Shown here piece by piece: positions 4,448-24,220 of a stretch of DNA of 26,386 bases (the first letter of the stretch is position 1; each line of letters begins with the position of its first letter). Source of the stretch: an uncultured Beijerinckiaceae bacterium (GTDB lineage: Bacteria; Pseudomonadota; Alphaproteobacteria; Rhizobiales; Beijerinckiaceae). Under the pieces are notes generated by a model. The model had not been told where the DNA came from. It saw only the letters and a list, made by a program, of their open reading frames with translations, and did not search any database. The stretch covers positions 1-26,386 of the forward strand of contig CALMGA010000193.1 in NCBI GenBank assembly GCA_937863205.1. Direction: 5' to 3'. The translations under genes were made by a program, and so were the position numbers.

Positions 4448-4460
4448 GAATTCCGAATTC
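4448..4460. promoter_or_regulatory. Candidate operator GAATTCCGAATTC, aldA promoter
   Basis: This 13-bp odd-centred palindrome has two GAATTC arms flanking one base and lies 55 nt upstream of aldA. The same motif is found at 17383-17395 and, with one mismatch, at 24208-24220, each time shortly before a catabolic gene. The recurrence at matching distance is the evidence for function; the binding protein (most simply the GntR regulator at 17555) is inferred. Confidence 0.6.
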
Positions 4461-4515
4461 GGAGACGTCGTCCGCGGCGGCTGTTCATGCGCCGAGGATA
4501 ACAGCAGGGCGGTCC

Positions 4516-5952
4516 ATGTACACCAGCCATTCGAACTACATTGGCGGAGCGCTCGTCGCCGATGCGTCCGGTTCCGCCCTGCCGGTGTACAATCCGTCGC
4601 GTGAAACTCAGCTTTCGGAGATCCCGATTTCCTCGGCGAGCATGGTCGACGCCGCCGTGCAGGCAGCCAAGAAGGCACAGGTCGAATGGGGGCGTCGCCC
4701 CGCCATCGAACGCGCCAGCGTGCTGCGTGCGATCGCGAGCGGCATCCGCGGGCGGATCGATCGGATCGCCAACATCATCTCGGAGGAGCAGGGCAAGGTT
4801 CTGCCGCTCGCGACCGTTGAGGTTCAGTTCACCGCCGCCTACCTCGACTACATGGCCGAATGGGCGCGCCGCATCGAAGGCGAAACGATCCAGAGCGACC
4901 GGCCGGGCGAGACAATTCTGTTGTTTCGCAAACCGATCGGCGTGGTCGCCGGCATCCTGCCCTGGAACTTCCCGTTCTTCCTGATCGCGCGCAAGCTCGG
5001 GCCGGCCCTGGTGACCGGCAACACCATCGTGATCAAGCCGAGCGAGGAAACGCCGAACAACGCGGCTGAATTCATCGACCTCTTGAAGGACATCGACGTC
5101 CCGGCCGGGGTGATCAACTTCGTTTTCGGCACCGGCGCGGTCACCGGACAGGCGTTGTCGAGCCATCCCGACGTCGGCCTGATCAGCTTCACGGGGAGCG
5201 TCGAGACCGGCTCCCGGATCATGGCTGCCGCGGCCCGCAACATCACCAAGGTCAATCTTGAACTCGGCGGCAAGGCGCCGGCGATCGTCCTGAACGACGC
5301 CGACATTCCGCTGGCCGTGAAAGCGATCACCGCGTCGCGAACCCTGAACAGCGGTCAGGTCTGCAATGCGGCCGAGCGCGTGTACGTCGAGGCGGCCATC
5401 GCCGACCAGTTCACCGAAAAGCTCGCCGAGGCGATGAAGGCCGTCAGGTTCGGCGATCCACTTGGCAATACCCCCGTCGACATGGGACCGCTGATCAACC
5501 GGGCCGGCCTGACCAAGGTCGACGATCTCGTGAAATCGGCCGTGCGGCAGGGCGGATCGGTGATCGCCGGCGGCGGCATCGCCGACCGCGGCGCCGGCCA
5601 CTTCTTCGAGCCGACCGTGATCGCGGGATGTCGCCCCGATATGGATGTGATGACGCGCGAGATCTTCGGGCCGGTGCTGCCGATCATGAAGGTGTCTGGT
5701 CTGGACGAGGCGATCAGCCTCGCCAACGAGACCGAATACGGCCTGACGTCCTCGATCTACACGACCAGTCTCACGAGCACGATGCGCGCGGTCAAGGAAC
5801 TCTCGTTTGGCGAAACCTACGTCAATCGCGAGAACTTCGAGGCGATGCAGGGCTTCCACGCGGGGGTGCGGAAGTCGGGCATCGGCGGCGCCGACGGCAA
5901 GCATGGGGTCTACGAATACACGGCGACGCATGTCGCCTACATCCAGGCCTGA
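4516..5952 (+). CDS. aldA: NAD(P)-dependent lactaldehyde/glycolaldehyde-type aldehyde dehydrogenase
   Basis: This 478-residue cytoplasmic enzyme oxidises an aldehyde to a carboxylate. The sequence closely follows E. coli AldA (lactaldehyde/glycolaldehyde dehydrogenase): shared blocks include YMAEWARRIEGETIQSDRPG, ILPWNFPFFLIARK and ETYVNRENFEAMQGFHAG. Catalytic residues are visible: Asn151 (PWNF), general base Glu249 (LELGGK) and nucleophile Cys283 (SGQVCN), essentially at AldA positions. The start ATG 4516 follows an AGGGCGG-like ribosome-binding site. It is the first gene of the putative long operon and carries the GAATTCCGAATTC palindrome in its promoter. AldA enzymes prefer 2-hydroxyaldehydes, so the context (PQQ dehydrogenase, CoA ligase, ThDP lyase) suggests oxidation of a 2-hydroxyaldehyde derived from a 1,2-diol. 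The family is certain; the substrate is inferred. Confidence 0.9.
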   Translation: MYTSHSNYIGGALVADASGSALPVYNPSRETQLSEIPISSASMVDAAVQAAKKAQVEWGRRPAIERASVLRAIASGIRGRIDRIANIISEEQGKVLPLATVEVQFTAAYLDYMAEWARRIEGETIQSDRPGETILLFRKPIGVVAGILPWNFPFFLIARKLGPALVTGNTIVIKPSEETPNNAAEFIDLLKDIDVPAGVINFVFGTGAVTGQALSSHPDVGLISFTGSVETGSRIMAAAARNITKVNLELGGKAPAIVLNDADIPLAVKAITASRTLNSGQVCNAAERVYVEAAIADQFTEKLAEAMKAVRFGDPLGNTPVDMGPLINRAGLTKVDDLVKSAVRQGGSVIAGGGIADRGAGHFFEPTVIAGCRPDMDVMTREIFGPVLPIMKVSGLDEAISLANETEYGLTSSIYTTSLTSTMRAVKELSFGETYVNRENFEAMQGFHAGVRKSGIGGADGKHGVYEYTATHVAYIQA

Positions 5953-6036
5953 GCCGGAAGAACACCAGCGATGCTGAACCAGCAAAGTACGTCGGTGGCC
6001 GTGGAGCCCCCGACGTCCTCACGATCGGGGGAAGGA

Positions 6037-6918
6037 ATGACAGGGAAAATCGGAGTTTACCTGGCGGGTGCAATCGTCGCGTTCCTGCCGCTCTCACCGG
6101 TTCATGCGGAGAACGTGACGTTCGCGGTCATCGGGCCGCACGAGTACGAACTCCCTGTCAATTTCAAGGACTTCGATGCCTTCGTGCAGTACGGGTTCAC
6201 CAACAAGACGAACCAGAGCTTCACGCCGAACGGTGGTCTGACCCACATTCCCAACCAGGACCTGAACGTCGGTCTCACCAAGATCGTCCGGTTCATCACC
6301 TTCGACTCGCTGCCCAACGTCGGTTTCGCGCCGGAAGCGATCGTGCCCGAAATCCAGGCGAACAGCGGTTCGGGGTCGAACGTCTACGGCATCGCCGATC
6401 CCATTTTCGGCGGCGCCGTCTGGGTCAAGCCGAACAAGAACTCGACATTCGGCTTCCAAACGTTCATCACGGCGCCGATCGGCACGAAGCAATTCACCAG
6501 CAACTTTTATTCGAACATCTCGACGATCTTTTACGACTACCAATTCAAGAATTTTGATATCGACGGCAATACCGGCGGCGTCTTCCGCAGCGACCAGCGA
6601 ACGCCGGGGGCGGACCGCCTGATCACCGGCACGACCTTCTTCACCGATCTCCGGATCGGATACAAATTCAATCAGCCCTCGTTCCCGATTGAGCCGTTCT
6701 TCGCACTCGACTACGAGTTCACCAACGGCGTGAAGGACGCGGTCACCGGATTGGCCGTCCCCAATTCCAACACCGAGGATCTGGCCCTCGGCGCCGGCGG
6801 CGTTTGGACGATCTCCGACAAGTACAGCCTGACGATCCGCTATTCACGGAGCGTGTACGGCCTCAACGAACCTCCAACCAACGCTGCTTACCTGAAATTC
6901 GTCAGCATCCTTCCTTGA
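6037..6918 (+). CDS. Outer-membrane protein, phenol-degradation (MetA/SphA-like) family
   Basis: This 293-residue protein has a signal peptide (MTGKIGVYLAGAIVAFLPLS, cleavage after HA near residue 24). The body is rich in aromatic and alternating residues typical of outer-membrane beta-barrels and resembles the Phenol_MetA_deg family (Pfam PF13557). Examples are DLRIGYKFNQPSFPIEPFFA, the repeated tyrosine/phenylalanine strands, and YSLTIRYSRSVYGL near the end. Members are linked to uptake of hydrophobic or aromatic growth substrates across the outer membrane, though few have been tested. ATG 6037 was preferred over an upstream in-frame ATG (5971) because GGGGAAGGA immediately precedes it and it gives a normal signal peptide. 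It lies 84 nt after aldA and 46 nt before the Rieske gene, which suggests co-transcription. Confidence 0.75.
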   Translation: MTGKIGVYLAGAIVAFLPLSPVHAENVTFAVIGPHEYELPVNFKDFDAFVQYGFTNKTNQSFTPNGGLTHIPNQDLNVGLTKIVRFITFDSLPNVGFAPEAIVPEIQANSGSGSNVYGIADPIFGGAVWVKPNKNSTFGFQTFITAPIGTKQFTSNFYSNISTIFYDYQFKNFDIDGNTGGVFRSDQRTPGADRLITGTTFFTDLRIGYKFNQPSFPIEPFFALDYEFTNGVKDAVTGLAVPNSNTEDLALGAGGVWTISDKYSLTIRYSRSVYGLNEPPTNAAYLKFVSILP

Positions 6919-6964
6919 TCCCACTCGGTGCGGTCGAAACCACAATGGCGCGAAAGGGTCCGTT

Positions 6965-7567
6965 TTGAGCGAGGCAAGCAGCAAGGCTTGGTCCGAAGGT
7001 TGCGTCGACCGCCGGGATGCGCTCGCCATCGGCGCATTCGCCTGTCTCGCCCCGGTGGTGTTTCCGAGGGCGGCCCGGGCCGACGCCGCTGCCGACGAGC
7101 TTCCGTCCAAGGGCGATCATCTGATCGCAGGCGAGGGTGATGCGAACTCGCCGCCGCTCCTGATCGAGGCCGTGAAGGTGGGCGGCGAGATCGTAACCGG
7201 GCTCGCGGTGACGCCCGCTGGCCAACTCAAGGACAACTCGCGGTTCGCCAAGCTCATCCTCTTCCGGTTCGACCCGAAGGACATTCCGGAGGCGGTGAGA
7301 CCGATGACGGTCGATGGCGTGATGGCCTTCTCGGCCATCTGCACGCATCAAGGCTGTGAATTGAGCGCGTGGGACCCGAGCAGCGAGCAACTCAGGTGTT
7401 TCTGCCACGGGTCCGCTTTCCTTCCCGCCAAGGGCGGCGAGGTCGCGAACGGCCCCGCCGTCAAGCAACTTCCCATGCTGCCGCTGAGCAAAGGGGAGGG
7501 TGGCAGGTTGCTGGTCGCCGATAATTTCACGGCGCAGCCGGGCCCACCTCAGAAGACGAAGCTGTAG
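6965..7567 (+). CDS. Exported Rieske [2Fe-2S] protein
   Basis: This 200-residue protein has both Rieske cluster motifs: C126-T-H128-Q-G-C131 and C145-F-C147-H148-G-S150. The extra pair Cys131/Cys147 (disulfide) and Ser150 match high-potential bc1-type Rieske proteins rather than ring-hydroxylating oxygenase ferredoxins. The N-terminus has an RR pair before a hydrophobic stretch (DRRDALAIGAFACLAPVV) and an ARA site near residue 39, consistent with TAT export of a pre-folded cluster protein. The start is TTG 6965 with AAAGGG six bases upstream; no in-frame ATG or GTG gives the signal. The gene is 25 nt before the PQQ dehydrogenase, and no cytochrome c gene is in the operon. A role as periplasmic electron acceptor for that enzyme is inferred. 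Confidence 0.82.
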   Translation: MSEASSKAWSEGCVDRRDALAIGAFACLAPVVFPRAARADAAADELPSKGDHLIAGEGDANSPPLLIEAVKVGGEIVTGLAVTPAGQLKDNSRFAKLILFRFDPKDIPEAVRPMTVDGVMAFSAICTHQGCELSAWDPSSEQLRCFCHGSAFLPAKGGEVANGPAVKQLPMLPLSKGEGGRLLVADNFTAQPGPPQKTKL

Positions 7568-7592
7568 GCACAACAAGAATCGGGAGGCAGAC

Positions 7593-9401
7593 ATGTTTGC
7601 AATCGTGCATCGCTTAAGAACTCAAAGTCTTCTCGCATCCGGCGCTGTCGCGCTCGTGCTGTCCGCGACGACGGCCGCGCGCGCCGGCGAGGCGCAGGCG
7701 GCGCCGGCAGCCTATCCGCCGGTGACGGATGAGCGTCTCGCAAACCCCGAGCCCGAGAACTGGCTGCAGTACCGCGGCAACTACCAGGGTTGGGGATACA
7801 GCCCGCTCGACCAGATCGACACGACCAACGTCAAGAAGCTCGTGCCGGCGTGGAGCGTATCCACGGGCGTCTCCGACGGTCACGAGGCGCCGCCGATCGT
7901 CAACAATGGGATCATGTTCGTCAGCACGCCCGGCGATCAGATCCTTGCCGTCCGTGCCGCGACCGGGCAGGTTCTGTGGAAGTACCAGCGCGAACTGCCG
8001 CCCGAACTGTTCCAGCTGCATCCGACCAATCGCGGCGTGGCGCTCTACGGCAGCAGCGTCCTCATCGCAACGCTTGACGCCTGCGTCGTCTCGCTCGATG
8101 CCGAGACCGGCAAGCAGAACTGGCAGAAGTGCGTCGCCGACTGGAAGGACAGCTACTACATGACGCTGTCGCCAATGGTGACGAGGGGGAAAGTGATCGT
8201 CGGCGTGTCCGGTGGCGAGTTCGGCATCCGCGGCTTCATCACGGCGCTAAACACAACCAACGGCGATGAGGTCTGGAAGACCTACACGGTTCCCGCGCCG
8301 GGCGAGCCCGGTTCCGAATCCTGGAAGGGTGACAGCTGGAAAACCGGCGGCGGCCCCATCTGGATCCAGGGCACCTATGACGCCAAGCTGAACATCGCCT
8401 ACTTCGGCACGGGCAACGGCGGCCCTTGGGATCCGACCGCCCGTCCGGGTGACAACCTTTACACGACCTCAGCGGTCGCCCTAGACGCCGATACGGGGAA
8501 GATCAAAGGCTATCATCAGTATCATTACAACGACGCCTGGGATTGGGATGAAGTGTCCTCGCCCATCCTGATCGACGTCAAAAGGAACGGCAAAACAATC
8601 CCGGCGGTCGTCCACGCCGCCCGCGACGGCTATCTTTGGACCCTCGAGCGCGGCAGCGACGGGTCGCTCAAGTACCTCGACGGCAAGCCGTTCGTTTACC
8701 AGAACGTCTTCACCAAGCTTGATCCCGTGACCGGCCGCCCGACCTACGACGAGGCGCGCGTCCCGCATCTGGGCATCACGGCCGCCTTTTGCCCGGGCCT
8801 GTGGGGCGGCAAGGACTGGTTCCCGGAAGCCTACAATCCGAAGACCAGGCTTCTTTACGTGCCGGCCAACGACAATCTTTGCGCAACGCTGACCGACATC
8901 AAGATCGGGCGCCGCAAGCCCGGTGAACTCTTCATCGGCGCGCCGGTCGCGGCCATCCTGAAGAGCCTGAGCTTCCGCCCCGGCACCGATACCTCGAAGC
9001 CGGTGACGATCGGCGAGATCCAGGCGTGGGACATGGATAGTGGCAAGAAGGTGTGGCAGCACGAGTTCAAGGACACCTCGATGTGGGGTCCGCTGCTCAC
9101 CACGGCCGGCGGCCTCGTGTTCGCCGGCGGCACCAGCGACCGCATGTTCCGCGCCTTCGACGCCAAGAACGGCAATGTGCTCTGGGAGACCAAGCTCAAC
9201 TCCGGCGTGGTCGGGGTTCCGACCTCGTTCCAGGTCGCGGGCACCCAGTACATCGCCGTGCAGGCGGGATGGGGCGGCGACGCCGACCGCATGCTGCAGG
9301 GCATCAACGATGCCCTGCCGGAGGCCCGCCGCCTGAAGGTCGCGCCGCAGGGCGGCGTGATCTGGGTGTTCAAGGTCGCCGGACAGGAAGCAGCGAAGTG
9401 A
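7593..9401 (+). CDS. PQQ-dependent alcohol dehydrogenase (methanol/ethanol family), soluble periplasmic
   Basis: This 602-residue quinoprotein has a signal peptide (hydrophobic LLASGAVALVLSATTAARA, cleavage near residue 32). Propeller repeats are seen as tryptophan-docking motifs such as ALDAETG/W and AWDMDSGKKVW. PQQ-site landmarks include GGEFGIRGF, TGNGGPWDP and the catalytic region NDAWDWDE. Asp317 is the catalytic Asp, and Asp319 two residues on is the extra acidic residue that marks lanthanide-dependent members (XoxF, PedH) where MxaF has Ala. The adjacent Cys-Cys ring of MxaF/ExaA is absent: the matching region reads LHPTNRGVALYG. There is no C-terminal heme c domain, so it should pass electrons to a separate carrier, possibly the Rieske protein. 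ATG 7593 follows GGGAGG. The stop overlaps the next start. The substrate is unknown; an alcohol or 1,2-diol is expected. Confidence 0.88.
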   Translation: MFAIVHRLRTQSLLASGAVALVLSATTAARAGEAQAAPAAYPPVTDERLANPEPENWLQYRGNYQGWGYSPLDQIDTTNVKKLVPAWSVSTGVSDGHEAPPIVNNGIMFVSTPGDQILAVRAATGQVLWKYQRELPPELFQLHPTNRGVALYGSSVLIATLDACVVSLDAETGKQNWQKCVADWKDSYYMTLSPMVTRGKVIVGVSGGEFGIRGFITALNTTNGDEVWKTYTVPAPGEPGSESWKGDSWKTGGGPIWIQGTYDAKLNIAYFGTGNGGPWDPTARPGDNLYTTSAVALDADTGKIKGYHQYHYNDAWDWDEVSSPILIDVKRNGKTIPAVVHAARDGYLWTLERGSDGSLKYLDGKPFVYQNVFTKLDPVTGRPTYDEARVPHLGITAAFCPGLWGGKDWFPEAYNPKTRLLYVPANDNLCATLTDIKIGRRKPGELFIGAPVAAILKSLSFRPGTDTSKPVTIGEIQAWDMDSGKKVWQHEFKDTSMWGPLLTTAGGLVFAGGTSDRMFRAFDAKNGNVLWETKLNSGVVGVPTSFQVAGTQYIAVQAGWGGDADRMLQGINDALPEARRLKVAPQGGVIWVFKVAGQEAAK

Positions 9402-10041: not shown

Positions 10042-11631
10042 ATGAAGGAGATCTTGACCTTCGGTCAGATGCTGACGGTCCATCAGCGTTTGCAACCGAA
10101 CCGGATCGGTGCCCGTGACCTCGAACGCGCGATGACCTTCCGGCAATGGAACGAGCGCTCCTGCCGGCTCGCCAACGCGCTCATCGGTCTCGGCCTGGCG
10201 AAGAACGACCGCGTCGCCGTGCTCGCCTACAATCGCGTGGAATGGCTTGAGATCTTCGCGGCAACGGCCAAGGCCGGCCTGGTCGTCGTTCCCCTCAACT
10301 TCCGTCTCATTGCCAACGAGATCCGCTTCATCCTCGAAGATGCGGGCGTGGCCGCGCTGATCGTTCAGGATGAGCTGGCCGGCGTGGTCGAGGAGCTGCG
10401 GGCCGACCTTCGCTTCCCCGCTTCGCGCGTGATTCATCTCGGATCCTCACGCTGCTCGGCCGGCTTCTCCGCCTACGAGGGCATTCTTGCCGCCGCCGCC
10501 GGCACGGAGCCGGAGCGCGGCGTCCGGCCCGACGACCCCTGCATGCTGCTCTACACCTCGGGCACGACCGGCAACCCCAAGGGCGTGATCCGCAGCCACC
10601 GCGGCAATGCGATGCTGTCCCTGGTGACCGAGATCGAGCTCGGCGTCACCCGCGACGACGCGGCACTCCTCGTCATGCCGATGTGTCATGCCAATTCGAT
10701 CTACTTCTTCGGCGCCTTCAGCTACTGCGGCGGCGTCACCAATGTTTATTCGCGCAAGAGCTTCGATCCCGAGCACTGCGTGCGCGTGCTGGGCGAAGGC
10801 ACCTCGACCTTCACGTCGCTGGTGCCGACGCACTATTCCATGATGCTGTCGCTTCCTCACGTCATGGGTCGCCGCGAGGACCTCAGGCGCGTCACCAAGC
10901 TGATGATTTCCTCCGCGCCGGCGCGGCCGGATACGAAGCGCATGGTGATGGAGATGTTCAAGAACTCCGGGCTCTTCGAGCTTTACGGCTCGACGGAGGC
11001 CGGCTGGGTCACCATGCTGCATCCCGAGGAACAGTTCACACACCTCGGCAGCGTGGGACGCGAGTGCGTCTGCTCGGCGCCGATCCGCTTCCTTGATGAG
11101 AACGGCGCCGACGTGCCGGACGGCCAAGCGGGGGAACTCTTCTCGAACAACCCCTACACGTTTGAAGGTTACTGGAACCTGCCGGACAAGACCGCCGCCG
11201 CCTTCCGCGACGGCGCCTGCTCCGTCGGCGACATCGGGCGCCGCGACAGCGACGGCTACATCCACCTCGTCGACCGCAAGAGCAACATGATCATCTCCGG
11301 CGGCGAGAACGTTTACCCCACCGAGGTCGAAGCCGTCCTCGGCACGCATCCCGCCGTGCGCGAGGTCGCGATCATCGGCCTTCCGCACGAGAAATGGGGG
11401 GAAAGCGTGCACGCGGTCGTCGTGCTGAAGCGCGACGGCGAGATCGACCAGGACCGCTTGCAACAGTTCTGCCGCGAGCGGCTTGCCGGCTACAAGCGGC
11501 CGCGCAGCTATTCGTTCGTGAACGACGAGGACATGCCCCGCACCGCGACCGGGAAGGTGGTGCACCGCAAGCTGCGCACCCTCGTGCTCGACGCGCACGC
11601 CGCCCGCGAGCGGGTGATCGCGGTTGATTGA
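10042..11631 (+). CDS. Acyl-CoA ligase (AMP-forming, ANL superfamily)
   Basis: This 529-residue cytoplasmic enzyme activates a carboxylate to its CoA thioester via an acyl-adenylate. The phosphate-binding loop [11 protein letters not shown] begins at Tyr171. Further core motifs are YGSTE, a GDIG hinge region, [16 protein letters not shown] and the C-terminal catalytic lysine Lys505 in PRTATGKV. Length and motifs are typical of fatty-acid/short-chain acid CoA ligases. ATG 10042 follows GGAG by six bases. The gene is 134 nt after the exported protein and 106 nt before the ThDP enzyme. By context its substrate is the hydroxyacid or keto-acid made by aldA or imported by the MFS carrier. This parallels LvaE in levulinate catabolism, or the ligase that makes 2-hydroxyisobutyryl-CoA ahead of a lyase. 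Specificity cannot be read from the sequence. Confidence 0.88.
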
Positions 11632-11737
11632 AGCGGCAAGATCCGCGCGGCGTCGGCCAGGGCAGCCGGTCCGACCCCTTTCCCGACCGGCGCGTCCGCC
11701 CAGCGTGGGTAAGGCCACCACTTGCAAGGAGACCGGA

Positions 11738-13495
11738 ATGAGCGAGCCGATCAGCGATTTGGGCACCGACGAGAACGCCGTTGCCGCCTGGATCGCCCGC
11801 TTTCTCCAGGCGCGCGGCGTGGACCGCGTCTTCGGTCTCCAAGGCGGCCACATCCAGCCGATCTGGGATCACTGCGGCAAGCTCGGCATCCGCATCATCG
11901 ACGTCCGCGACGAGGGCGCCGCGGTGCACATGGCGCAAGCCCATGCCGAACTGACCGGAGGTTTCGGCGTGTGCATGGCGACCGCCGGTCCCGGGGTGAC
12001 GAACTGCGTGACCGCCATTGCCAATGCCTCGCTGGCCCGCATCCCCGTTCTTCTGATCGGCGGCTGCACATCGCGCCAGCAGGCCAACATGGGACCGCTG
12101 CAGGACATCCCGCACGTCGATATCCTGCGGCCGGTGACGCGCCGCTCTCGCACGCTTCGCGTCGCCGAGCAGGTCATCCGCGAGTTCGACGAGGCGCTTG
12201 CCGTCATGATGGGCGACATGGGCGAGCCCGGGCCGGTCTACCTCGAAGTGCCGACGGACGTTCTGCGCGCGTCGGTCCGGCCGCCGCTGATCCTCGCCGA
12301 TTGGATGCGGGCCAAGCCCCCCCGGCGCATCCCGCCCGAGGCCGACGCCGTTCGCCGGGCGGTTGATGTCCTGTGGGCGGCGAAGCGGCCGCTCGTCGTC
12401 ACCGGCCGGGGCGCCCGCGATGCCGGTCCCGAACTGGTGCGCCTGCTCGACGCGCTCGGCGCCGTTTACCTCGACACGCAGGAAAGCCGCGGCCTCGTGC
12501 CGGCCGAGCATCCGGCGGGTGTCGGCGCGATGCGCGGCGCCGCGATGGCCGAGGCCGACACCGTGCTCGTGATCGGCCGCAAGCTCGATTACCAGCTCGG
12601 ATATGGCTCGCCGGCCGTATTCGCGGCGGCGCAGGCCTTCGTACGCATCGCCTTCAGCCCGGGAGAACTGATCGACAACCGCCGCGGCGACCCCGAGATC
12701 CTCGCGGACCCGGCGCTCGCCCTTGCCGCCATCGTCGAGGCGGCGCGCAACCGCGAACCCGCGCGTGATGCGGCCTGGACGCGGCGCCTGCGTGGCGAGC
12801 ACGGGAAGCGGACGGCGGCCGGCAAGAGCAAGGCCCACGATGCCGGGCCGGACGGCTATGTCCATCCTATGGCGATCTTTGACGCGATCCGCGATGTTGT
12901 CGCCGACGATGCCATCGCCATCGCCGACGGCGGCGACCTCTTGAGCTTCGCCCGGGTCGGACTTGAGGCGAAAACCTACCTCGATTCCGGCGCCTTCGGT
13001 TGCCTCGGGGTGGGGGTGCCCTACGCCGTGGCGGCGGCGCTGGCCTTTCCTCGGCGACAGGTCGTCTGCGTGACGGGGGACGGCGCCTTCGGCTTCAACG
13101 CGATGGAACTCGACACGGCGGTGCGCCACCGCGCGGGAATCGTCGTCATCGTTTCCAACAATGCCGCCTGGAACATCGAGCGTCACGATCAGGCGACGAA
13201 CTACGGCGGTCGGGTGATCGGCACGACCCTCGCCTACTCCGACTATGCCGCGATGGCCCGTGGCCTCGGCGCACATGGTGAGCGCGTCACAAGGGCGGCC
13301 GACCTGCCGGCCGCCCTGGAACGCGCCTTCGCCAACGCCCCGGCCCTCGTCGACGTGACGACATCCCAGGAGGTGGTGTCGTCCGACGCCCGCAAGGGTC
13401 TCGGTTTCGTGCCGAACTATCAAGCCCTCACTGCCTGGGACGATGCCGAACGCAAGCGCCGCGGCGACGTTCACGACGCAGTGGCGCATCCCTGA
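11738..13495 (+). CDS. ThDP-dependent enzyme, acetolactate synthase/2-hydroxyacyl-CoA lyase type
   Basis: This 585-residue thiamine-diphosphate enzyme has the three-domain layout of acetolactate synthase, oxalyl-CoA decarboxylase and 2-hydroxyacyl-CoA lyase. The ThDP-activating Glu59 lies in [10 protein letters not shown], and the cofactor/Mg motif is GDG 447-449 with N474-N475. An acidic Glu481 follows in [11 protein letters not shown]. No separate regulatory subunit gene is nearby, arguing against true acetolactate synthase. Position directly after a CoA ligase suggests the substrate is an acyl-CoA. Cleavage of a 2-hydroxyacyl-CoA to an aldehyde or ketone plus formyl-CoA would fit the AldA and PQQ enzymes upstream. 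The actinobacterial lyase acting on 2-hydroxyisobutyryl-CoA is the closest functional precedent I know. ATG 11738 follows AAGGAG. The family is firm; lyase activity is an inference (about 0.6). Confidence 0.82.
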
Positions 13496-13603
13496 AAGTT
13501 GCGCCCTCGACTGATGACCCGGCCGAAACTGCGGCCTATCGAACCCGCGCCCCGTCGCGACGAACTGCCGGCAGGACTTCCCCTGCGTGAAGGAGACAAG
13601 CCG

Positions 13604-13897: not shown

Positions 13898-15082
13898 TCA
13901 CTGCCGCTCGATCAGGACGGCGATCCCTTGTCCGCCGCCGATGCACATGGTGGCGAGCGCGTAGCGTCCGCCCGTGCGGTGCAGTTCGTAGATCGCTTTC
14001 ACCGCGATGATCGCGCCGGTGGCGCCGATGGGATGTCCCAGCGCGATGGCGCCCCCGTTCGGGTTGACCCTGGCCGGATCGAGCCCGAGCGTCTTGGTCA
14101 CGGCGCAGGCCTGCGCCGCGAAGGCCTCGTTCGACTCGATCACGTCGATGTCGCCGATCTTCAGTCCCGCCTTGGCGAGCGCCATCTGCACGGCGGGAAC
14201 CGGTCCCATGCCCATTTCCGCGGGATCGACGCCGCACACGGCGTAGGCGACGAGGCGCGCCAGCGGCGTCAAGCCGCGCGCCGCGCTCGTCCTCGCGTCC
14301 GCCAGCACGAGCGCGGCAGCCCCGTCGTTGAGGCCCGACGCATTGCCGGCCGTCACGGTGCCGTCCTTCTTGAAGGCGGGGCGCAGCTTCGTCATGTCGG
14401 CGGCCGACACGTCCGCCCGCACGTGCTCGTCGGTGTCGAAGGTCACCGGCCCCTTGCGCGATGAAACCTCGAAAGGTGCGATCTGCTCCTTGAAGCGGCC
14501 GTCCTTGATCGCGGCCGCGGCGCGCGCGTGGCTTGCCACCGCCGCGGCGTCCTGCTCCTCGCGCGAAACCTGGTAGCGCTGCGAAACGTTCTCCGCCGTG
14601 ATCCCCATGTGGCCGTTGCCGAACGGGTCCTGCAGGGCGCCGAGCATCATGTCGACGAGCGCGGCGTCGCCCATCTTCTGGCCCCAGCGCGCGGCCGGCA
14701 GGATGTAGGCCGACCGGCTCATACACTCGGTCCCCCCGGCGAGCGCGACCGACGCGTCCCCCAGTTTGATCATCTGCGCGGCGGAAATGATCGCCTGCAG
14801 TCCTGAGCCGCAGAGACGGTTCAGCGTCATTGCCGGAGCCGATTTCGGCACGCCGCTCTCCATGGCCACCACCCGCGAAACGTACATGTCGCGCGGCTCG
14901 GTATGGATCACGTTGCCGAAGACGGCATGCTCGACGTCCTCGGGCGCGAGACCGGACCGGGCGATCGCCGCCTTGGCGACGTGGGCGCCGAGCACCGCCG
15001 GCGGCTGGTCCCTCAGCGCGCCGCCGAAGTCTCCGATCGCGGTGCGTGCGCCCGAAAGGAAGTGAACGTCGATATCCGGCAT
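13898..15082 (-). CDS. Acetyl-CoA acyltransferase (thiolase)
   Basis: This 394-residue thiolase has acyl-accepting Cys91 in NRLCGSGLQA, His350 in ALGHPIGATG and the second catalytic Cys380 in MCIGGGQG, all at the usual positions for degradative/biosynthetic thiolases. It cleaves 3-ketoacyl-CoA with CoA to acetyl-CoA and a shortened acyl-CoA, or runs in reverse. ATG 15082 follows AGGAACC, and the kinase gene ends only 12 nt upstream, so it is the last gene of a three-gene operon. In the proposed scheme a C5 ketoacyl-CoA would give acetyl-CoA plus propionyl-CoA, the latter entering the methylcitrate genes next door. The chain-length preference (PhaA/AtoB versus FadA) is not resolved from the sequence. 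Confidence 0.92.
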   Translation of the reverse strand: MPDIDVHFLSGARTAIGDFGGALRDQPPAVLGAHVAKAAIARSGLAPEDVEHAVFGNVIHTEPRDMYVSRVVAMESGVPKSAPAMTLNRLCGSGLQAIISAAQMIKLGDASVALAGGTECMSRSAYILPAARWGQKMGDAALVDMMLGALQDPFGNGHMGITAENVSQRYQVSREEQDAAAVASHARAAAAIKDGRFKEQIAPFEVSSRKGPVTFDTDEHVRADVSAADMTKLRPAFKKDGTVTAGNASGLNDGAAALVLADARTSAARGLTPLARLVAYAVCGVDPAEMGMGPVPAVQMALAKAGLKIGDIDVIESNEAFAAQACAVTKTLGLDPARVNPNGGAIALGHPIGATGAIIAVKAIYELHRTGGRYALATMCIGGGQGIAVLIERQ

Positions 15083-15094: not shown

Positions 15095-16120
15095 TCAGAT
15101 CAGGTCCGCCGCGTGCTTGGCAAAGACGGCAGCGAGCCGGCCGTTGGCTTCGGCATCGTCGGACGAGGCGTTGCCGGCCTTGGCGCGCGCGGCGATACCT
15201 TCGAAGATCACCGACCAGCGGAACAGCGAAAAGGCGCGATGGAACGTGGCGAGCCGTGCGCCGTGCGCCGCGTGACCGGCGTAGGTTTCCTCGAACCCCT
15301 GCAACGTCGGCAGGCCCATCGCCGCGAGATCGAGGCCGAGTAGGCCGCCGAACTCGTCCGGTCGGGTCTGCCAAGCGATCGCGGCGTGGCCCACGTCGGC
15401 GAGCGGATGTCCGAGCGTCGACAATTCCCAGTCGAGAATTGCGACGACGTGCGGCTCGTGCGGGTGGAACATCAGGTTGCCGATACGGTAATCGCCATGT
15501 ACCAGGCCGACCGTGGCGTCGTCGGGAATGTGCCGGGGCAGCCAATCGATCAGCCGGTCGATGTTGGCGTCCTCGCGCGTGCGCGACAGCTCCCATTGCC
15601 TGCTCCAGCGGCCGATCTGCCGCGCGAAGTAATTGCCCGGCCGGCCGTAGTCGGCGAGGCCGACCGCGGCGGCGTCGACGCCGTGCAGGTCGGCGAGCGT
15701 GCGTGCCATCGCCTCATACATCGCCCGGCGCTCTTCGGGGGCGACACCCGGCAGCGTCGCCTCGTGAAAGACGCGGCCGTCGACGCGGTCCATGACGTAG
15801 AACGGTGTTCCGACAACAGAGCGGTCCTTGCAGAACAGCACGGCCGGGGGCACCGGGACCGCCGTTCCCGCCAACGCGCTGATGACGCGGAACTCGCGAT
15901 CGATGGCGTGGGCGGACGGCAGGAGATCGCCGGGCGGCTGCTTGCGCAGAACGAGGCGACGATTGTCGAAAGTGACGAAGTAGGTCGGATTCGACTGACC
16001 GCCATCGATCCGTTCGAGATGCATCTCGCCTTCAAGGTGCGCCACAGCTCCGCGCAGGTAGTTTTGCAGGACCTTCGGGTCGAACCCGTGCGAGTGCGCG
16101 GAGCCGTCAGTCTGGCTCAC
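15095..16120 (-). CDS. APH-like kinase (ACAD10/11 N-domain, LvaA type)
   Basis: This 341-residue member of the aminoglycoside-phosphotransferase fold has catalytic HGD (Asp210) and Asn215 in LVHGDYRIGNLMF, and the metal-binding Asp230 in AILDWELSTLGHP. The DWELSTLGHPLADVG block is characteristic of the subgroup fused to acyl-CoA dehydrogenase in mammalian ACAD10/ACAD11 and represented by LvaA of Pseudomonas. Those proteins phosphorylate the hydroxyl of 4-hydroxyacyl-CoAs, so drug resistance is unlikely. It starts at GTG 16120, overlapping the acyl-CoA dehydrogenase stop as GTGA, i.e. translationally coupled to its functional partner. LvaA needs the small partner LvaB; no LvaB-like gene is visible here. 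The substrate is therefore inferred from family and neighbour only. Confidence 0.85.
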   Translation of the reverse strand: MSQTDGSAHSHGFDPKVLQNYLRGAVAHLEGEMHLERIDGGQSNPTYFVTFDNRRLVLRKQPPGDLLPSAHAIDREFRVISALAGTAVPVPPAVLFCKDRSVVGTPFYVMDRVDGRVFHEATLPGVAPEERRAMYEAMARTLADLHGVDAAAVGLADYGRPGNYFARQIGRWSRQWELSRTREDANIDRLIDWLPRHIPDDATVGLVHGDYRIGNLMFHPHEPHVVAILDWELSTLGHPLADVGHAAIAWQTRPDEFGGLLGLDLAAMGLPTLQGFEETYAGHAAHGARLATFHRAFSLFRWSVIFEGIAARAKAGNASSDDAEANGRLAAVFAKHAADLI

Positions 16121-17337
16121 GCTGCGGGCCGTTCCGCCACCGGCCAGCGCCAGAAACCGTCGCCCTCCTCGTTGAGGAAGCGATTGAGCACCATCTGATG
16201 CACTTCGTCGGCCCCGTCGACGAGCCGGGCCTGGCGGGCGTAGCGGTAGATCCACTCCAGCACCGTGTCCTTGGAATAGCCGCGCGCGCCGTTGATCTGG
16301 ATCGCCGTATCGGCGGCGAGGTGCAGGACGTTGGCCGCCTGGATCTTGGCCATGGAGATCGCCTTGCGCGCGAACTGTCCTTGATCGAGCTCCCAGGCCG
16401 CCTTCATGACGAGCAGGCGGCCGACCTCGATGTCCATCGCCACCCGACCCAGCTTGAGCTGGATGCTTTCGCGGTCGGCGAGGCGGGTGGCGAAGCCGAG
16501 GCGCACATCTGCATAGGCGCGCGCGATCTCCACGCAGCGCTTGGCCAAGCCGAGCCAGCGCATGCAATGGGTGAGGCGCGCCGGTCCCAGCCGGATCTGC
16601 GTGACCTTGAGGCCCTTGCCGACGCCCAGCAGGATCTCATCCTCCGGCACGGTCAGGCCGTCGAACTCCAGTTCGCAATGGCCGCCATGCTCCTCGGGAC
16701 CCATGATCCCGATGCGGCGCACGATGCGCCAGCCCGGCTGATCCCTGTGGAACTGGAAGGCGGTGAGGCCGTGGCGCGCGTCATCGGAGGTGCGGGCGAT
16801 CAGCGTGAAATGCGAGGCGTGCTCCGCGCCGGTGATGAACCATTTGCGTCCGGTGACGCGATACGAACCGTCCGCCTGCCGCTCGGCGCGGGTTTGGATC
16901 ATCGACGGGTCGGACCCGCCGCCGGGATGGGGTTCGGTCATGGCGAAGGCGGAGGCGACCTCGCCGCGCATGATCGGGCCGAGCCAGCGCTCCTTCTGGG
17001 CCGGCGTTGCGACGGCCGCGAGCATCATCATGTTGCCGTCGTCGGGGGCTGCCGAATTGAAGACGACCGGCCCGAAGATCGAGCGGTTCATCGCCTCGTA
17101 GCAGACGGCCATGCCGACACGCCCGATGCCGGGCCCTCCAAGCTCTGACGGCAGTTGCAGGCACCAGAGTCCTTCCCCGCGCGCCTTCTCCCGCAGCTGC
17201 TTCAGGACCCCTTCATCGATGTTGCCGTGGGGGTTGTAGGCGGACGGGTCGGCTTCGAAGGGAACGATCTCGCGATCGACAAAATCCGCGATGCGCGAGC
17301 GGAGGGTCTCGACAGGTTCCGAAATCGTGAGATCCAT
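16117..17337 (-). CDS. Acyl-CoA dehydrogenase, ACAD10/11-LvaC type
   Basis: This 406-residue FAD enzyme has the FAMTEP segment with a GGGSDP loop, TGRKWFITGA for FAD binding, the TFQ-like QFHRD strand, and a C-terminal helix bundle ending ARQARLVDGADEVHQMVLNR. The last block, with VDGADEVH in place of the usual EGTxEI, is typical of the ACAD10/11 group. Together with the coupled kinase it should turn a phosphorylated 4-hydroxyacyl-CoA into an enoyl or 3-hydroxyacyl-CoA, as LvaC does in levulinate catabolism. ATG 17337 was chosen; an upstream in-frame TTG at 17397 would place the start within the operator palindrome. It is the first gene of the operon, 45 nt after the GAATTCAGAATTC motif and divergent from the GntR gene. 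Confidence 0.9.
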   Translation of the reverse strand: MDLTISEPVETLRSRIADFVDREIVPFEADPSAYNPHGNIDEGVLKQLREKARGEGLWCLQLPSELGGPGIGRVGMAVCYEAMNRSIFGPVVFNSAAPDDGNMMMLAAVATPAQKERWLGPIMRGEVASAFAMTEPHPGGGSDPSMIQTRAERQADGSYRVTGRKWFITGAEHASHFTLIARTSDDARHGLTAFQFHRDQPGWRIVRRIGIMGPEEHGGHCELEFDGLTVPEDEILLGVGKGLKVTQIRLGPARLTHCMRWLGLAKRCVEIARAYADVRLGFATRLADRESIQLKLGRVAMDIEVGRLLVMKAAWELDQGQFARKAISMAKIQAANVLHLAADTAIQINGARGYSKDTVLEWIYRYARQARLVDGADEVHQMVLNRFLNEEGDGFWRWPVAERPAA

Positions 17338-17382
17338 TGGCAACCCGTGCACTTGGGGACGACGGTTTACAAGAGTTGTTGT

Positions 17383-17395
17383 GAATTCAGAATTC
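17383..17395. promoter_or_regulatory. Candidate operator GAATTCAGAATTC, divergent promoter
   Basis: This 13-bp odd-centred palindrome extends to 15 bp as TGAATTCAGAATTCA. It lies in the 217-nt divergent region, 45 nt upstream of the acyl-CoA dehydrogenase and 159 nt from the GntR gene. It is the same motif as at 4448-4460 and 24208-24220. Its location beside the regulator gene is the reason for suggesting that regulator as the binder. Confidence 0.6.
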
Positions 17396-17459
17396 AAACT
17401 GATACCGCATCGCTCCGCGCCTTGGGACTCGCGTCATCTTCTGGCGTTCGATAGAGGGT

Positions 17460-17474
17460 TGATTGTATGTATCA
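17460..17474. promoter_or_regulatory. Second inverted repeat, TGAT-N7-ATCA, near GntR gene
   Basis: TGATTGTATGTATCA is an AT-rich imperfect palindrome 80 nt upstream of the GntR start. FCD-type GntR regulators often bind short TG...CA palindromes of this size, so this is an alternative or autoregulatory operator candidate. It was not found at the aldA or SDR promoters. Confidence 0.4.
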
Positions 17475-17554
17475 TCCGTGATCCGCGTTGGTTCGCCCGA
17501 CAGGTCGGGCGGATCTTCCCTGGCGCAAAGCGGGCGACCGATGGAGACTGAACG

Positions 17555-18238
17555 GTGCGACCGCTCGCGGTGCAGGCAACTCTCGTGGAGCAGGTCTACG
17601 AAAAGATCCTGGCCGAGATTTCCGGTGGCCGGCTGGTGTCCAATCAACGGCTGATCCAAGATGAACTCGCGCGCATGCTCGGCGTCTCGCGCCAGCCGAT
17701 CCAGCAAGCCCTGCTGCTGCTCCACAGCCAAGGCTACCTGCGCGAGGCGCCCGGTCGCGGCCTCGTGGTGGCGCCGATCGACATCCGCGCGATCAGTGAA
17801 CTCTACCAGATCCGATCGGTCATCGAGGGGCTGGCCGCCCGCCTCGCCGCAGCCCGACGCGACAAGGCGGCGCTCAAGCGCGGCCTCGCCCTCGTCAAGG
17901 ATGGGCGGGCGGCGGTCAAGCAGGGCTCCCTGACCAAACTGATCCGCGCCGACATCGAGTTCCATAAAGCCCTCTACGACATGTCCGGCAACGGGATGAT
18001 CCGGGAGGCGACCCAGCCCAACTGGTACCACTTCAGCCGTGTGATGGGCGAGGTCCTGCTTCAGGACGAGCCGCCCCGCGACATCTGGGACCAGCACGAA
18101 GCTATCCTTGCCGCGATCGAGCAGGAAAACGCCGCTTCGGCGGAGGTGCTCGCCCGGGAACACATCACGCGGGCCGCGGAAGAATTCATCTTCCGGCTCA
18201 AGCAGAACGAGCGGAGGGACACCCTCGGATCCACCTGA
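17555..18238 (+). CDS. GntR-family transcriptional regulator, FCD (FadR/VanR) subfamily
   Basis: This 227-residue regulator has a winged helix-turn-helix at about residues 8-75 (LIQDELARMLGVSRQPIQQA, then LREAPGRGLVV wing). An all-helical FCD ligand domain follows, with the usual metal-binding set Asp133, His137 (DIEFH), His181 (DQHEAI) and His203 (REHI). Such proteins sense carboxylates or acyl-CoAs and usually repress divergent catabolic genes. The start is GTG 17555 with GGAG eight bases upstream. It is divergent from the acyl-CoA dehydrogenase operon and the intergenic region has two palindromes. The repeated GAATTCNGAATTC motif upstream of aldA, the dehydrogenase and the SDR suggests it controls all three units. 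The ligand is unknown; a pathway acid or CoA ester is likely. Confidence 0.9.
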   Translation: MRPLAVQATLVEQVYEKILAEISGGRLVSNQRLIQDELARMLGVSRQPIQQALLLLHSQGYLREAPGRGLVVAPIDIRAISELYQIRSVIEGLAARLAAARRDKAALKRGLALVKDGRAAVKQGSLTKLIRADIEFHKALYDMSGNGMIREATQPNWYHFSRVMGEVLLQDEPPRDIWDQHEAILAAIEQENAASAEVLAREHITRAAEEFIFRLKQNERRDTLGST

Positions 18239-20380: not shown

Positions 20381-20423
20381 GGCGTGGCGGTCCCGATCGG
20401 GTCTTTGAGGACTGGCGTGCGTG

Positions 20424-21950: not shown

Positions 21951-22024
21951 ATTGCGAATGCGTCGTTGCGAGGGAAGGCACTTTCGTGCGCATTGAGGCG
22001 AAGGCGATCGGAGCGATTGCGAAT
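21951..22024. promoter_or_regulatory. Repeated ATTGCGAAT in prpD/regulator divergent region
   Basis: ATTGCGAAT occurs at 21951-21959 and again at 22016-22024, the second copy overlapping the regulator start codon; a related TTGCGAG is at 21966-21972. The element resembles the TTTGCAAA-type sites known for RamB and mycobacterial PrpR, relatives of the regulator encoded here. It is a candidate operator for prp activation and autoregulation. The assignment is by analogy. Confidence 0.5.
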
Positions 22025-23447
22025 GGTGCGAAGCGTGAGGCGGCCGAAGCTGTTCGTCGGCCCGAAGCTGCGCCGCTTGCGCGCGGCGGCTGGCATGAGT
22101 CAGGTCGCGCTGGCCAAGGCGATCGGCCTATCGCCGACCTACCTCAACCAGATCGAGTGCGACCAACGCCCGCTGCCGCCGCCGGCCCTGCAGCGTATTT
22201 GTGACCTGTTCGCCGTCGGGGTCGATCATTTCGGGGATGCCGAGGACCTGCGCCGGATGCAGGGACTGCGCGAAGCGCTGGGTGAACGGCTGTTCGCGAC
22301 GCCGATCGCCGACCTCGCCGAGGTGCAGGTCGCCGTGCAGAGCGTGCCCGAGATCGTTTGCCGCTTCGTCCTCCTCCACCGCGCCTACCGCGCGCAGGCG
22401 GAGGAGTTGCAGGCCACGCGCGGCGCCGCCGGCGCGACCAGCGCGCTAGGACCCTACGACGAGGTGCGGGAATGGGTGCAATCGCGTCGCAACCATTTCT
22501 ACGCGTTGGACGGCGCGGCCGAAGTCCTGTTCGAGACGGCGGGTTTGGCGAGCGCGACGCTGCGCGAGGACTTGATCCGACGCCTGCGCGACCTGCACGG
22601 CTTCACGTTGGCCAGCGATCCTTCGCTTCTGGTCGAGGGCACCTTCTGGCGTGTCGATCGGCGCGCGAAACGCCTCACCTTCGCCGAGAGCGCGGCGCCG
22701 GAAAGCCGCGTCTTCTGGATGGCGCACCTGCTCGGGCAGATCGAGCAGCGGCGCTTGATCGACCGCGAGGTGCAGACCGCCGGCTTGTCGAGCGACGAAG
22801 CGCGCGCCCTGGCGCGGATCGGCCTTGCCAACTACTTCGCCGGTGCGCTGATGATGCCCTATGGCCGCATCCTCGACGCGGCATCCGCCGTGCGCCACGA
22901 CATCGAGCGGCTGCAGGCCCGCTTCGGCGCCAGCTTCGAGCAGGTGTGTCATCGCCTGAGCACCCTGCAAAGACCCGGCCGGGCGGGTATTCCTTTCTAC
23001 TTCGTCAAGACGGATATCGCCGGCAACATCCTCAAGCGCAGCAGCGCGACGCGCTTCCGCTTCTCGCAGTTCGGCGGACCCTGCCCCTTGTGGAACGTGT
23101 ATCGGACCTTCGCTACGCCGGGGCAGATCCTGGTGCAGCTCGCCCGCACGCCCGATGACGTCACCTACCTCAACATTGCCCGCACGGTCAGCCGGGGCGG
23201 CGGCTTCCACCTGTCGCGCCCGCGTGCGGTCGCCGTGGTTCTGGGCTGCGAGGTCGAGCATGCGTCGCAAACCGTCTACGCCGCCGGGCTCGACCTTCAA
23301 GACACCAACGCGACCGAGGCGATCGGACCGGGTTGCCGCATGTGCGAGCGGACGAACTGCCGGCACCGCGCCATGCCGCCGATCGGCCAACCGCTCGACA
23401 TCGGCACCGAGGAACGCGGCATGGTGCCCTATCGCGTCAAGGTCTGA
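22023..23447 (+). CDS. XRE-family short-chain acyl-CoA regulator (RamB/PrpR/ScfR-like)
   Basis: This 474-residue regulator has an N-terminal XRE helix-turn-helix (about residues 13-68, [20 protein letters not shown] and [10 protein letters not shown]). A central ImmA/IrrE-like (DUF955) region follows with the degenerate segment [19 protein letters not shown], then a C-terminal DUF2083-type domain. Four cysteines, Cys354 (GGPCPLW) and Cys438/Cys441/Cys446 (CRMCERTNC), match those proposed to hold a 4Fe-4S cluster in mycobacterial PrpR. Relatives bind short-chain acyl-CoAs and activate methylcitrate or glyoxylate genes. ATG 22023 is the family start; the same frame stays open far upstream, but only as antisense to prpD. 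It is divergent from prpDCB, which it most likely activates in response to propionyl-CoA. Confidence 0.9.
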
Positions 23448-23486
23448 GAGCGCCGGATCGGACGAGGCCGGCGCGGGCGGTAGTGA

Positions 23487-23559
23487 CCCGCAAGAGGAAC
23501 GCCCGCAAGAGGAAGGATGGTGTGACGACGTCTGACTCGTCCCTACGTCCGCCATCCTT
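23487..23559. repeat. 13-bp tandem direct repeat and 8-bp inverted repeat after the regulator
   Basis: CCCGCAAGAGGAA occurs at 23487-23499 and 23502-23514, two nt apart. Overlapping its end, AAGGATGG (23513-23520) pairs with CCATCCTT (23552-23559) across a 31-nt loop. This lies 40-112 nt beyond the regulator stop in a 244-nt gap with no gene. It may be a terminator-like structure or a small duplication scar; no T tract is present. Confidence 0.4.
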
Positions 23560-23691
23560 CGAGACCAGGCGCCCGAAACCACTTCGTCCGTTAACCGATT
23601 GCCAGTGGACGACCGTCATGACGGTGGGCGCCGAACCTAAGCCGGGCGCCTCGCGTCGTTCAATTCATGGTCATGTAGTCGCGTTCGCGCC

Positions 23692-23916
23692 TCAAAAGCC
23701 CGCCTGGGTGCCGAACGTCTTGAAACCGTTGGGAACGCGAAGACCCATGACCTGCTGCCCCTGCGCATCCGACCTGCGTGCAGCGGTGTCGACCGCAGCC
23801 GTGGACGCCTGGAAGCGGTGGTGCAGCGGCACCGACCGGTGCAGCGTCTGGGCCTGAGCGGCCGAGCCGGCGACCTGCGCGGCAACGACCATGGCCACTG
23901 CGACGAATTTCAACAT
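23692..23916 (-). CDS. Small secreted protein
   Basis: This 74-residue protein starts at ATG 23916 with a strong AAGGAG seven bases upstream. MLKFVAVAMVVAAQVAGSAA followed by QAQ near residue 23 is a clear signal peptide. The mature part is about 50 residues (LHRSVPLHHRFQAS... VMGLRVPNGFKTFGTQAGF) with several histidines and no cysteines. It is unrelated in sequence to the other short exported proteins here except for the signal peptide. It sits between the PrpR-like regulator (converging) and the SDR gene (diverging). Function is unknown. Confidence 0.6.
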   Translation of the reverse strand: MLKFVAVAMVVAAQVAGSAAQAQTLHRSVPLHHRFQASTAAVDTAARRSDAQGQQVMGLRVPNGFKTFGTQAGF

Positions 23917-24207
23917 CGAAAACTCCTTCTATCGTTCGATCTATGTCGTTCGTCGGAGAGATATGCTGACCCACAGCCGTTTCAAGGACATCGCGTGGCA
24001 ACCAGTTGACGACTTCTTCGGCCTCCGCGCCTCGCGGTGCTGAACCTCGGCAGGTACAAATCGTATTCGTGAGATGATGGCGCGCGGTTATTGTTGCTCG
24101 CACCACAGTAAACGGATCGCGTTCCCCCTTGCGTTGCGCACTCGTCTACAGTGCCGGCGGGCACGGGCCTCGGCGACCGCGGATAGGCCCTCGTTGCGCG
24201 CCCCAGC

Positions 24208-24220
24208 GAATTCCGAATAC
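24208..24220. promoter_or_regulatory. Candidate operator GAATTCCGAATAC, SDR promoter
   Basis: The third copy of the 13-bp palindrome, with one mismatch (A for T in the right arm), lies 34 nt upstream of the SDR start. The left arm and centre are identical to the aldA copy. It links the SDR gene, 7 kb away, to the same putative regulon. Confidence 0.5.

Follow-up and report, generated by a model that had tools for sequence, protein, structure and literature searches.

The DNA analysed here, called the window, is a stretch of 26,386 nucleotides of contig CALMGA010000193.1 from an uncultured Beijerinckiaceae bacterium. It carries a repeated palindrome built of GAATTC hexamers, which stands before an aldehyde dehydrogenase gene (aldA), before an acyl-CoA dehydrogenase (ACAD) gene and, in a less perfect form, before a gene of the short-chain dehydrogenase/reductase (SDR) family. 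The ACAD gene is divergent from gntR, which encodes a GntR/FCD regulator and the proposed reader of the palindrome (Table 1).

Palindromic sites and genes of the window

A pattern search found exact copies of GAATTCNGAATTC at 4448–4460 and 17383–17395 and a one-mismatch copy at 24208–24220, the places where the initial annotation had put them. Its spacings also agree with the sequence: the first copy lies 55 nt from the aldA ATG (4516), the second 45 nt from the ACAD ATG (17337, minus strand) and the third 34 nt from the SDR start, a GTG (24255). The names that it gave to these three genes and to the GntR/FCD regulator hold. GAATTC hexamers occur in the window at 1083, 4448, 4455, 5068, 13738, 17383, 17390, 18182 and 24208. 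The isolated ones lack a second arm, as had been claimed; the one placed at 18188 really begins at 18182, and that at 13738 had not been named. In 200 first-order Markov sequences with the window's composition, exact 13-mer copies numbered 0.0000 and one-mismatch copies 0.040 per random window, so the recurrence is not due to chance, in agreement with the original argument. With up to three mismatches the window holds 8 copies against 6.8 expected, which is unremarkable.

The 13-bp copies are real, and they are part of a larger site. Aligned sites from 67 loci (see below) give a 20-bp palindrome of three hexamers, GNAYTC-T-GAATTC-A-GARTNC. The first window site is such a triple, TAGTTC-T-GAATTC-C-GAATTC at 4441–4460, missed in the initial annotation. 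The alignment required the central hexamer and ranked sites by the likeness of their arms to GAATTC, so that the conservation of the arms owes something to the selection; the T and A beside the core, and the symmetric variation in the arms, lie outside the selection criteria. A site matrix was built from the same 67 of the first 80 related loci, and the sites at 4441 and 17376 both outscore every one of 100 random windows (best 16.5). Operator 2 (17376–17395) is positioned between divergent genes, about 160 bp before gntR and at the distance given above from the ACAD gene. An operator-like stretch at about 17459–17480, between the ACAD gene and gntR, was seen by eye and dropped, having no computed support.

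The three-promoter regulon first proposed thus stands for the aldA and ACAD sites, while the SDR site, taken alone, has weak support. Its score of 7.6 does not reach 11.4, the 95% level for the maximum over a whole window, so that by itself it is not significant window-wide. The SDR copy also has a spacer C in place of T and A and no left arm. It could then be a chance near-match, with only the other two sites real, a reading that is compatible with the regulator's role proposed here and that we consider somewhat unlikely. Sites of that score are expected 0.0003 times per 120 bp and 0.0036 times per twelve such upstream regions (60 random windows), and the mismatched letter (GAATAC) belongs to an outer arm, at a position where relatives vary too. 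Moreover, SDRs 51–57% identical to that of the window adjoin ACAD and kinase genes in five related clusters (L019, a partial match, L034, L052, L058 and L059).

Table 1. Predicted operators and annotated genes of the window
Feature	Position	Strand	Description	Support
Operator 1 (predicted)	4441..4460		triple hexamer, two good hexamers and worn left arm	matrix score 23.4
Operator 2 (predicted)	17376..17395		GAATTC-A-GAATTC, degenerate left arm	matrix score 18.7
Operator 3 (weak, predicted)	24208..24227		GAATTC-C-GAATAC, core and one arm	matrix score 7.6
aldA	4516..5952	+	aldehyde dehydrogenase	NF007497, 725 bits, cut-off 500
Outer-membrane-type protein (PF13557)	6028..6918, start approximate	+		domain search
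Rieske-domain protein	6965..7567	+		domain searches
Alcohol dehydrogenase	7587..9401	+	dependent on pyrroloquinoline quinone (PQQ)	TIGR03075, 550 bits, cut-off 480
Acyl-CoA ligase	10042..11631	+	AMP-forming, candidate 2-hydroxyacyl-CoA ligase	domain match; neighbourhood
2-Hydroxyacyl-CoA lyase	11735..13495	+	thiamine pyrophosphate (TPP) enzyme	NF058623, 1006 bits, cut-off 600
Beta-ketothiolase	13898..15082	-	BktB type	PRK09051 subfamily, 656 bits, cut-off 565
Kinase	15095..16141	-	APH type, like ACAD11 kinase part	3dxp 325 bits, ACAD11 8v3v 231 bits
ACAD	16117..17337	-	acyl-CoA dehydrogenase	domain search
GntR/FCD regulator	17555..18238	+	recognition helix VSRQPIQQAL; proposed operator reader	
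SDR	24255..25022	+	SDR family oxidoreductase	domain and family models

Conservation of the element in related loci and genomes

A genome scan with the window GntR protein yielded 80 loci whose regulators are 34–54% identical to it. By their labels they belong to Beta-, Gamma- and Alphaproteobacteria and Actinomycetospora, with one metagenome-assembled genome (MAG) labelled Terriglobia, and most of the compared loci are shorter than 21 kb. The helix peptide VSRQPIQQ was one of the six anchor peptides that retrieved them, which makes the set circular in that respect. AMP-forming ligases and TPP enzymes are the recurrent neighbours, and some loci share the window's PQQ dehydrogenase, Rieske protein, aldehyde dehydrogenase, major facilitator superfamily (MFS) transporter, ACAD, kinase or SDR. 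The initial annotation had looked to orthologous promoters for support, and there the motif is present: 69 of the 80 loci have a 13-mer copy (at most one mismatch) no more than 300 bp ahead of the gntR homologue or of a partner gene. It is also rare elsewhere, the density upstream of cluster genes being about 94 times higher: with each triple counted twice, 130 sites fall in 73,131 bp there and 24 in 1,271,118 bp in the rest of the loci.

The 64 GAATTC-type sites lie at a median of 20 bp from the aligned gntR start, a closeness that fits repression. In the window the operators stand 34–55 bp from their targets and operator 2 about 160 bp from gntR, which might fit a GntR protein that binds them as an activator or dual regulator and not as a simple repressor. 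Yet 51 of those 64 sites are within 80 bp of the aligned start, which is unusual for an activator, and this alternative appears improbable.

Nine loci have a PQQ dehydrogenase of at least 47% identity, and in six (L002, L024, L034, L036, L050 and L060) a copy precedes the unit, at a distance of 640 bp in L034. An ACAD homologue together with a kinase or SDR occurs in seven loci, with 71% ACAD identity in L052 and L059 and 37–40% in L019, L022, L024, L034 and L058. The ACAD set follows the lyase on the same strand in L019, L024, L052 and L059, where the two would share transcription. It has a site of its own in L034, about 300 bp before a leading MFS gene, and in L022, about 460 bp before the ACAD frame; the set of L058 has none. 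The crude open reading frame picker was confused by antisense frames, and only its unambiguous calls entered the comparison. L033, a contig whose title names a Bordetella parapertussis MAG, has a ligase–lyase–gntR cluster with an operator stretch identical over 34 bp to that of L018, from a Comamonadaceae MAG; the L033 title may be a mis-assignment.

Whole genomes show the same association. In 23 genomes (of 24 loci named), the 13-mer with at most one mismatch occurs 174 times versus 6 for a reversed control, coding and non-coding DNA pooled, and the 20-mer at this stringency occurs in 22 of the 23, the control in none. Among 150 Burkholderiales genomes, 11 encode a regulator scoring at least 184 bits, a cut-off picked after the lists were seen, at a gap from 184 to 161 bits. 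The exact 20-mer is found in 9 of these 11 and in none of the other 139 (8/10 and 0/139 without the centre genome, Fisher 9e-12); with one mismatch allowed the counts are 11/11 and 9/139, each of the nine being a single one-mismatch match. In the family of G016 (61 genomes), the exact 20-mer occurs in 3 of the 6 genomes with a homologue of at least 120 bits versus 0 of 55 (p 5.6e-4; 0.0056 without the centre genome), and a one-mismatch 20-mer in 3 of the 55. One of the three genomes with the exact 20-mer, G060, has its site 33 kb from the gntR found. Homologue-bearing genomes without the exact 20-mer have an NS helix (G024), NS and TS helices (G062) or an SH helix with an exact 13-mer upstream (G031).

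Searching in the opposite direction, with gntR ignored, 9 of 385 alphaproteobacterial genomes contained the exact 20-mer, including the already known G009. Six of the 8 further genomes have a gntR homologue 14–28 bp away (to the aligned start); for G821 (L150) and G990 (L152), the 13.5-kb stretch examined in each genome showed no homologue. These two are small alphaproteobacterial genomes with GAATTCG tandem repeats, one of them holding ten exact 20-mers. Such arrays, of which the 20-mer is a part, could suggest that the recurrence is a dispersed simple repeat or chance. However, the window copies lie outside any GAATTCG array, exact copies are not expected in random windows, and the motif is conserved at promoters of the same genes; the locus and Burkholderiales counts contradict this explanation, whose probability we regard as negligible. 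Seven regions of other contigs (L103–L109) were chosen for a motif match alone; L103 and L107 hold a gntR homologue and L108 holds the PQQ dehydrogenase, ligase and lyase.

Several observations weigh against the palindrome serving as the regulator's operator. The remaining four motif-chosen regions (L104, L105, L106 and L109) have no gntR, ligase or lyase homologue, and the L104 copy sits inside an open frame. All four come from genomes that hold the regulator; some motif copies must therefore be chance or have another role, which qualifies the rarity of the motif at unrelated genes. Eleven of the 80 loci have no copy at one mismatch or fewer. One of them, L026, has only 262 bp present upstream of gntR, four (L062, L063, L068 and L070) have a different recognition helix, and in five (L037, L038, L065, L069 and L080) the sites are degenerate or lie farther off, L037 and L038 being among the nearest alphaproteobacterial relatives. 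The last, L079, has a QQ helix and no site, as does the later locus L115, and L153, with a regulator 54% identical, has a degenerate site. Three of the nine PQQ dehydrogenase loci (L035, L045 and L080) lack a copy directly before this gene, which in L035 comes after the ligase on the same strand. In the window itself, all three sites score below the training-loci median of 37.1, and the ligase and lyase have no operator copy of their own; their expression would depend on read-through from aldA.

The regulator and its proposed operator core

The window regulator has an N-terminal GntR winged helix (PF00392, 48.1 bits, cut-off 27) and a C-terminal FCD domain (PF07729, 95.8 bits, cut-off 24.3), the architecture of the FCD subfamily. 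In this subfamily a set of Asp and His residues in the FCD pocket has a ligand role; measured here is its conservation, with D133, H137 and H181 invariant in 124 of 124 sequences and H203 present in 118 (6 gaps). Asp36 and Gln50 of the window protein presumably correspond to Arg35 and Arg49 of FadR, in our own alignment.

Regulator score alone failed to predict the motif in an alphaproteobacterial class sample, where 16 genomes had a GntR match at E ≤ 1e-45 and only one had the exact 20-mer; recognition helices were therefore compared. Thirteen of the 15 strong-match genomes without the exact 20-mer have LQ, IQ, GQ, HV or HE helices, the exceptions being G008 (QQ) and G748 (SH). We then sorted 183 regulators by the core present in the 350 bp before gntR, using a matrix that gave no weight to the two core letters in dispute. 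The QQ-type, to which the window regulator belongs (n = 94), has the core GAATTC in 55 cases, another core in 9 and no scored site in 30; GTATAC occurs in none of the 64 with a scored site. Many QQ-type loci without a site upstream of gntR have it at a partner gene, and a matrix score of at least 15 is reached within 2.5 kb in 79 of 85 QQ-type relatives. GAATTC is also the core in 7 of 8 SH-type and both TH-type regulators. The LQ, IQ, MQ, NQ, NS and GQ types together have GTATAC in the same frame in 23 of 34, other cores in 5 and no site in 6. VQ-type regulators gave one GAATTC and one GTATAC. No scored site was found upstream of gntR for the LT, TS, HV, HE and QH types (0/9) or the RE and RD types (0/34).

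Part of this sample was fetched because of the operator (L145–L152) or a motif match (L103–L109), and L110 (G050) was found by both searches. Among loci fetched for gntR, a site is present in 5 of 6 other later QQ-type loci (L123, L126, L127, L153 and L154; not L115), in 4 of 4 SH-type (L113, L122, L155 and L159) and in 2 of 2 TH-type loci. All 17 Burkholderiales homologues below 184 bits (L195–L211) have LQ, IQ, GQ or MQ helices, with cores of GTATAC (15), GTATCC (one) and GAATCC (one). GTATAC-centred 20-bp elements were likewise seen before the genes of paralogous FCD regulators (L133, L157, L124 and L195–L210; LQ, IQ, VQ, GQ and MQ helices), L202 among them having GTATCC.

These differences centre on residue 50. 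The ratio of GAATTC to GTATAC cores is 64:0 with Gln, Ser or Thr at this position and 1:24 with other residues (Fisher 8e-21, relatedness ignored), the exception being L147, with Val50 and GAATTC. Residue 50 is the best of 212 columns for predicting the core (0.82 bits), followed by residues 34 (0.67) and 54 (0.64). On an FCD-domain tree (110 rows, many forks unresolved), the residue-50 trait and the core each need at least 4 changes. A pair test on this tree has only three supported pairs, of which two agree and one shows no difference (p 0.5), so that residue 50 is to be taken as a candidate determinant. In the excerpted family-wide GntR study, Gln and Asn prefer A in general, and a recognition-helix Arg contacting G is a conserved contact (PMC4494728). 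An Arg of the recognition helix (R46) and the outer G are both kept in the present group, and a T-to-A change adjoining this G would accord with these contacts and preferences. We propose tentatively, at somewhat less than even odds, that one clade keeps the 20-bp frame while its core flips between GTATAC and GAATTC, and that residue 50 alone may set the choice, Gln, Ser or Thr for GAATTC and Leu, Ile, Met, Gly or Asn for GTATAC. If true, the exchange of one residue would act in nature as a reversible switch of specificity and keep paralogous regulators of the same genomes insulated from each other.

Tracking of the motif with the regulator and with its recognition-helix residues also bears on which protein reads the element. 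The window encodes a second regulator, of the RamB/ScfR type (22059–23447, divergent from prpBCD; NF038139, 436 bits, under the cut-off of 700), which might read the motif, the link to GntR then being neighbourhood only. This is very improbable: the motif tracks gntR over the 80 loci and the samples of 150, 61 and 385 genomes, and the core tracks the GntR helix. The one compared locus for which a ScfR homologue is listed (L115) has no motif copy in its 15-kb stretch. Directly observed are the sites and their conservation, and also that they occur together with the regulator and vary with it.

The initial annotation had assigned the sites to the GntR/FCD protein, and sequence comparison strongly supports this regulon, with that protein as the likely reader. 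We put the probability at about 0.83 that the GntR/FCD regulator at 17555–18238 uses the palindrome as its operator and acts as a repressor released by a small carboxylic acid. Binding, repression, operon structure and inducer are what we infer from the comparison. Dimers would bind the 20-bp element, with a central GAATTC and one or two further copies at a 7-bp pitch, one outer arm being worn in each window site. Bound near the start codons, the regulator would repress the unit running from aldA through the PQQ dehydrogenase to the ligase and lyase, the ACAD–kinase–thiolase unit and, probably, the SDR. The FCD domain may take up a small carboxylic acid, with a 2-hydroxy acid or the corresponding CoA ester as the best candidate, and this binding would release the regulator.

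Possible function of the proposed regulon and comparison with known systems

Across loci, the most conserved targets are the 2-hydroxyacyl-CoA lyase and its ligase, and a ligase homologue adjoins the lyase homologue in most related loci that hold the latter. The best solved relative of the window TPP enzyme is a 2-hydroxyacyl-CoA lyase (PDB 7pt1, 720 bits). The window PQQ dehydrogenase and aldehyde dehydrogenase could turn a diol into a 2-hydroxy acid, with formyl-CoA and a carbonyl compound as the expected products of its cleavage by the ligase and lyase. The second unit, with its ACAD11-like kinase, ACAD and BktB-type thiolase, adjoins prpBCD; the thiolase falls short of the stricter BktB equivalog (636 versus 725). 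The breakdown of 4-hydroxy acids is a model for such a unit, and by analogy it could convert 4-hydroxyvaleryl-CoA to acetyl-CoA and propionyl-CoA, with the SDR as the possible missing 3-hydroxyacyl-CoA dehydrogenase.

Other features surround these genes. Small open frames beside the PQQ dehydrogenase (9401–9907) and the lyase (13499–13852) have no Pfam match. The methylcitrate-cycle operon prpBCD (18312–21923) is convergent to gntR; PrpB and PrpC score above their cut-offs, and the PrpD-like protein, at 853 bits, is under its cut-off of 950. RamB/ScfR-type regulators have TTTGC as a half-site motif, and none was found between prpD and the regulator of this type. At the window end, 25031–25621 encodes the C-terminal part (196 aa, with IMS_C and DUF4113 matches) of a UmuC/ImuB-type polymerase whose gene appears cut, adjoined by an apparent transposase fragment seen by eye. 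A short frame at 213–812 resembles a transposase remnant, with a weak homeodomain-like helix-turn-helix match (PF13384, 20.8 bits, under the cut-off of 24.6). A plasmid origin of the window was considered and rejected; megablast gave 52 records at 60–90% identity, and among the 20 listed, 18 matched the prp region and 2 the aldehyde dehydrogenase.

For the 2-hydroxyacyl-CoA lyase pathway, which concerns the breakdown of tertiary alcohols, fuel oxygenates and isobutene products, the analysis supplies an operator and a regulon that can be tested. No description of an operator for this pathway, or of the operator class and switch named below, was found among the papers listed or read in an open-access full-text library, subscription papers and preprints lying outside the search, and the papers listed for the motif letters were unrelated. 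A 2026 isobutylene paper, in the excerpt available, describes the regulation of the isobutylene pathway as not understood (PMC13188929). What is new is an operator class without GT and AC for this branch of the large FCD family, together with the candidate one-residue switch; a residue on which the choice between two operator letters may depend would be useful for regulon prediction and for 2-hydroxy acid biosensors.

The best solved sequence relative of the regulator is the "Probable transcriptional regulator" of PDB 7xp0/7xp1 (72 bits over residues 9–209). Its helix, SRGPLREA, is of the RE type, and none of the 33 RE-type relatives has a scored element of this frame upstream. A further known counterpart is the GntR protein of Actinomycetospora chiangmaiensis DSM 45062 (WP_018331912.1, L049), a 42% homologue adjoining the same kind of lyase, with an element one mismatch from the 13-mer between lyase and gntR. 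According to the excerpted account of that organism, the lyase, ligase and oxidising enzymes beside the GntR gene are up 23–39-fold on 2-hydroxyisobutyrate versus acetone, the GntR protein itself was not detected, and a GntR gene is usually present near the mutase–ligase genes of other bacteria (PMC7176365). The diol is oxidised there by the NAD(P)-dependent MpdB and not by a PQQ dehydrogenase, and the excerpt names no ACAD/kinase unit and no operator or binding (PMC7176365).

With the FadR/FCD subfamily the window regulator shares both domains. Its operator core retains G and C at the outer positions of the GT-N2-AC class, and family members have been described with weaker boxes 7–12 nt from the centre; the excerpted subfamily consensus, however, keeps GT and AC, whereas the core here is GA-AT-TC (PMC4494728). 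The same excerpt gives the GT...AC operator as usual but not obligatory, with NanR and BioR as named exceptions. Escherichia coli NanR, likewise a GntR regulator of the FCD type, has an operator that departs from the consensus, three hexamers in close succession, (GGTATA)3, of which two or more repeats are required for high-affinity cooperative binding (PMC8012715, in excerpt). That cooperativity requires a 32-residue N-terminal extension (PMC8012715), whereas the GntR domain match of the window protein starts at residue 11, leaving no long extension of the NanR type. The NanR hexamer also differs in sequence, and the hexamers of the present element are each palindromic.

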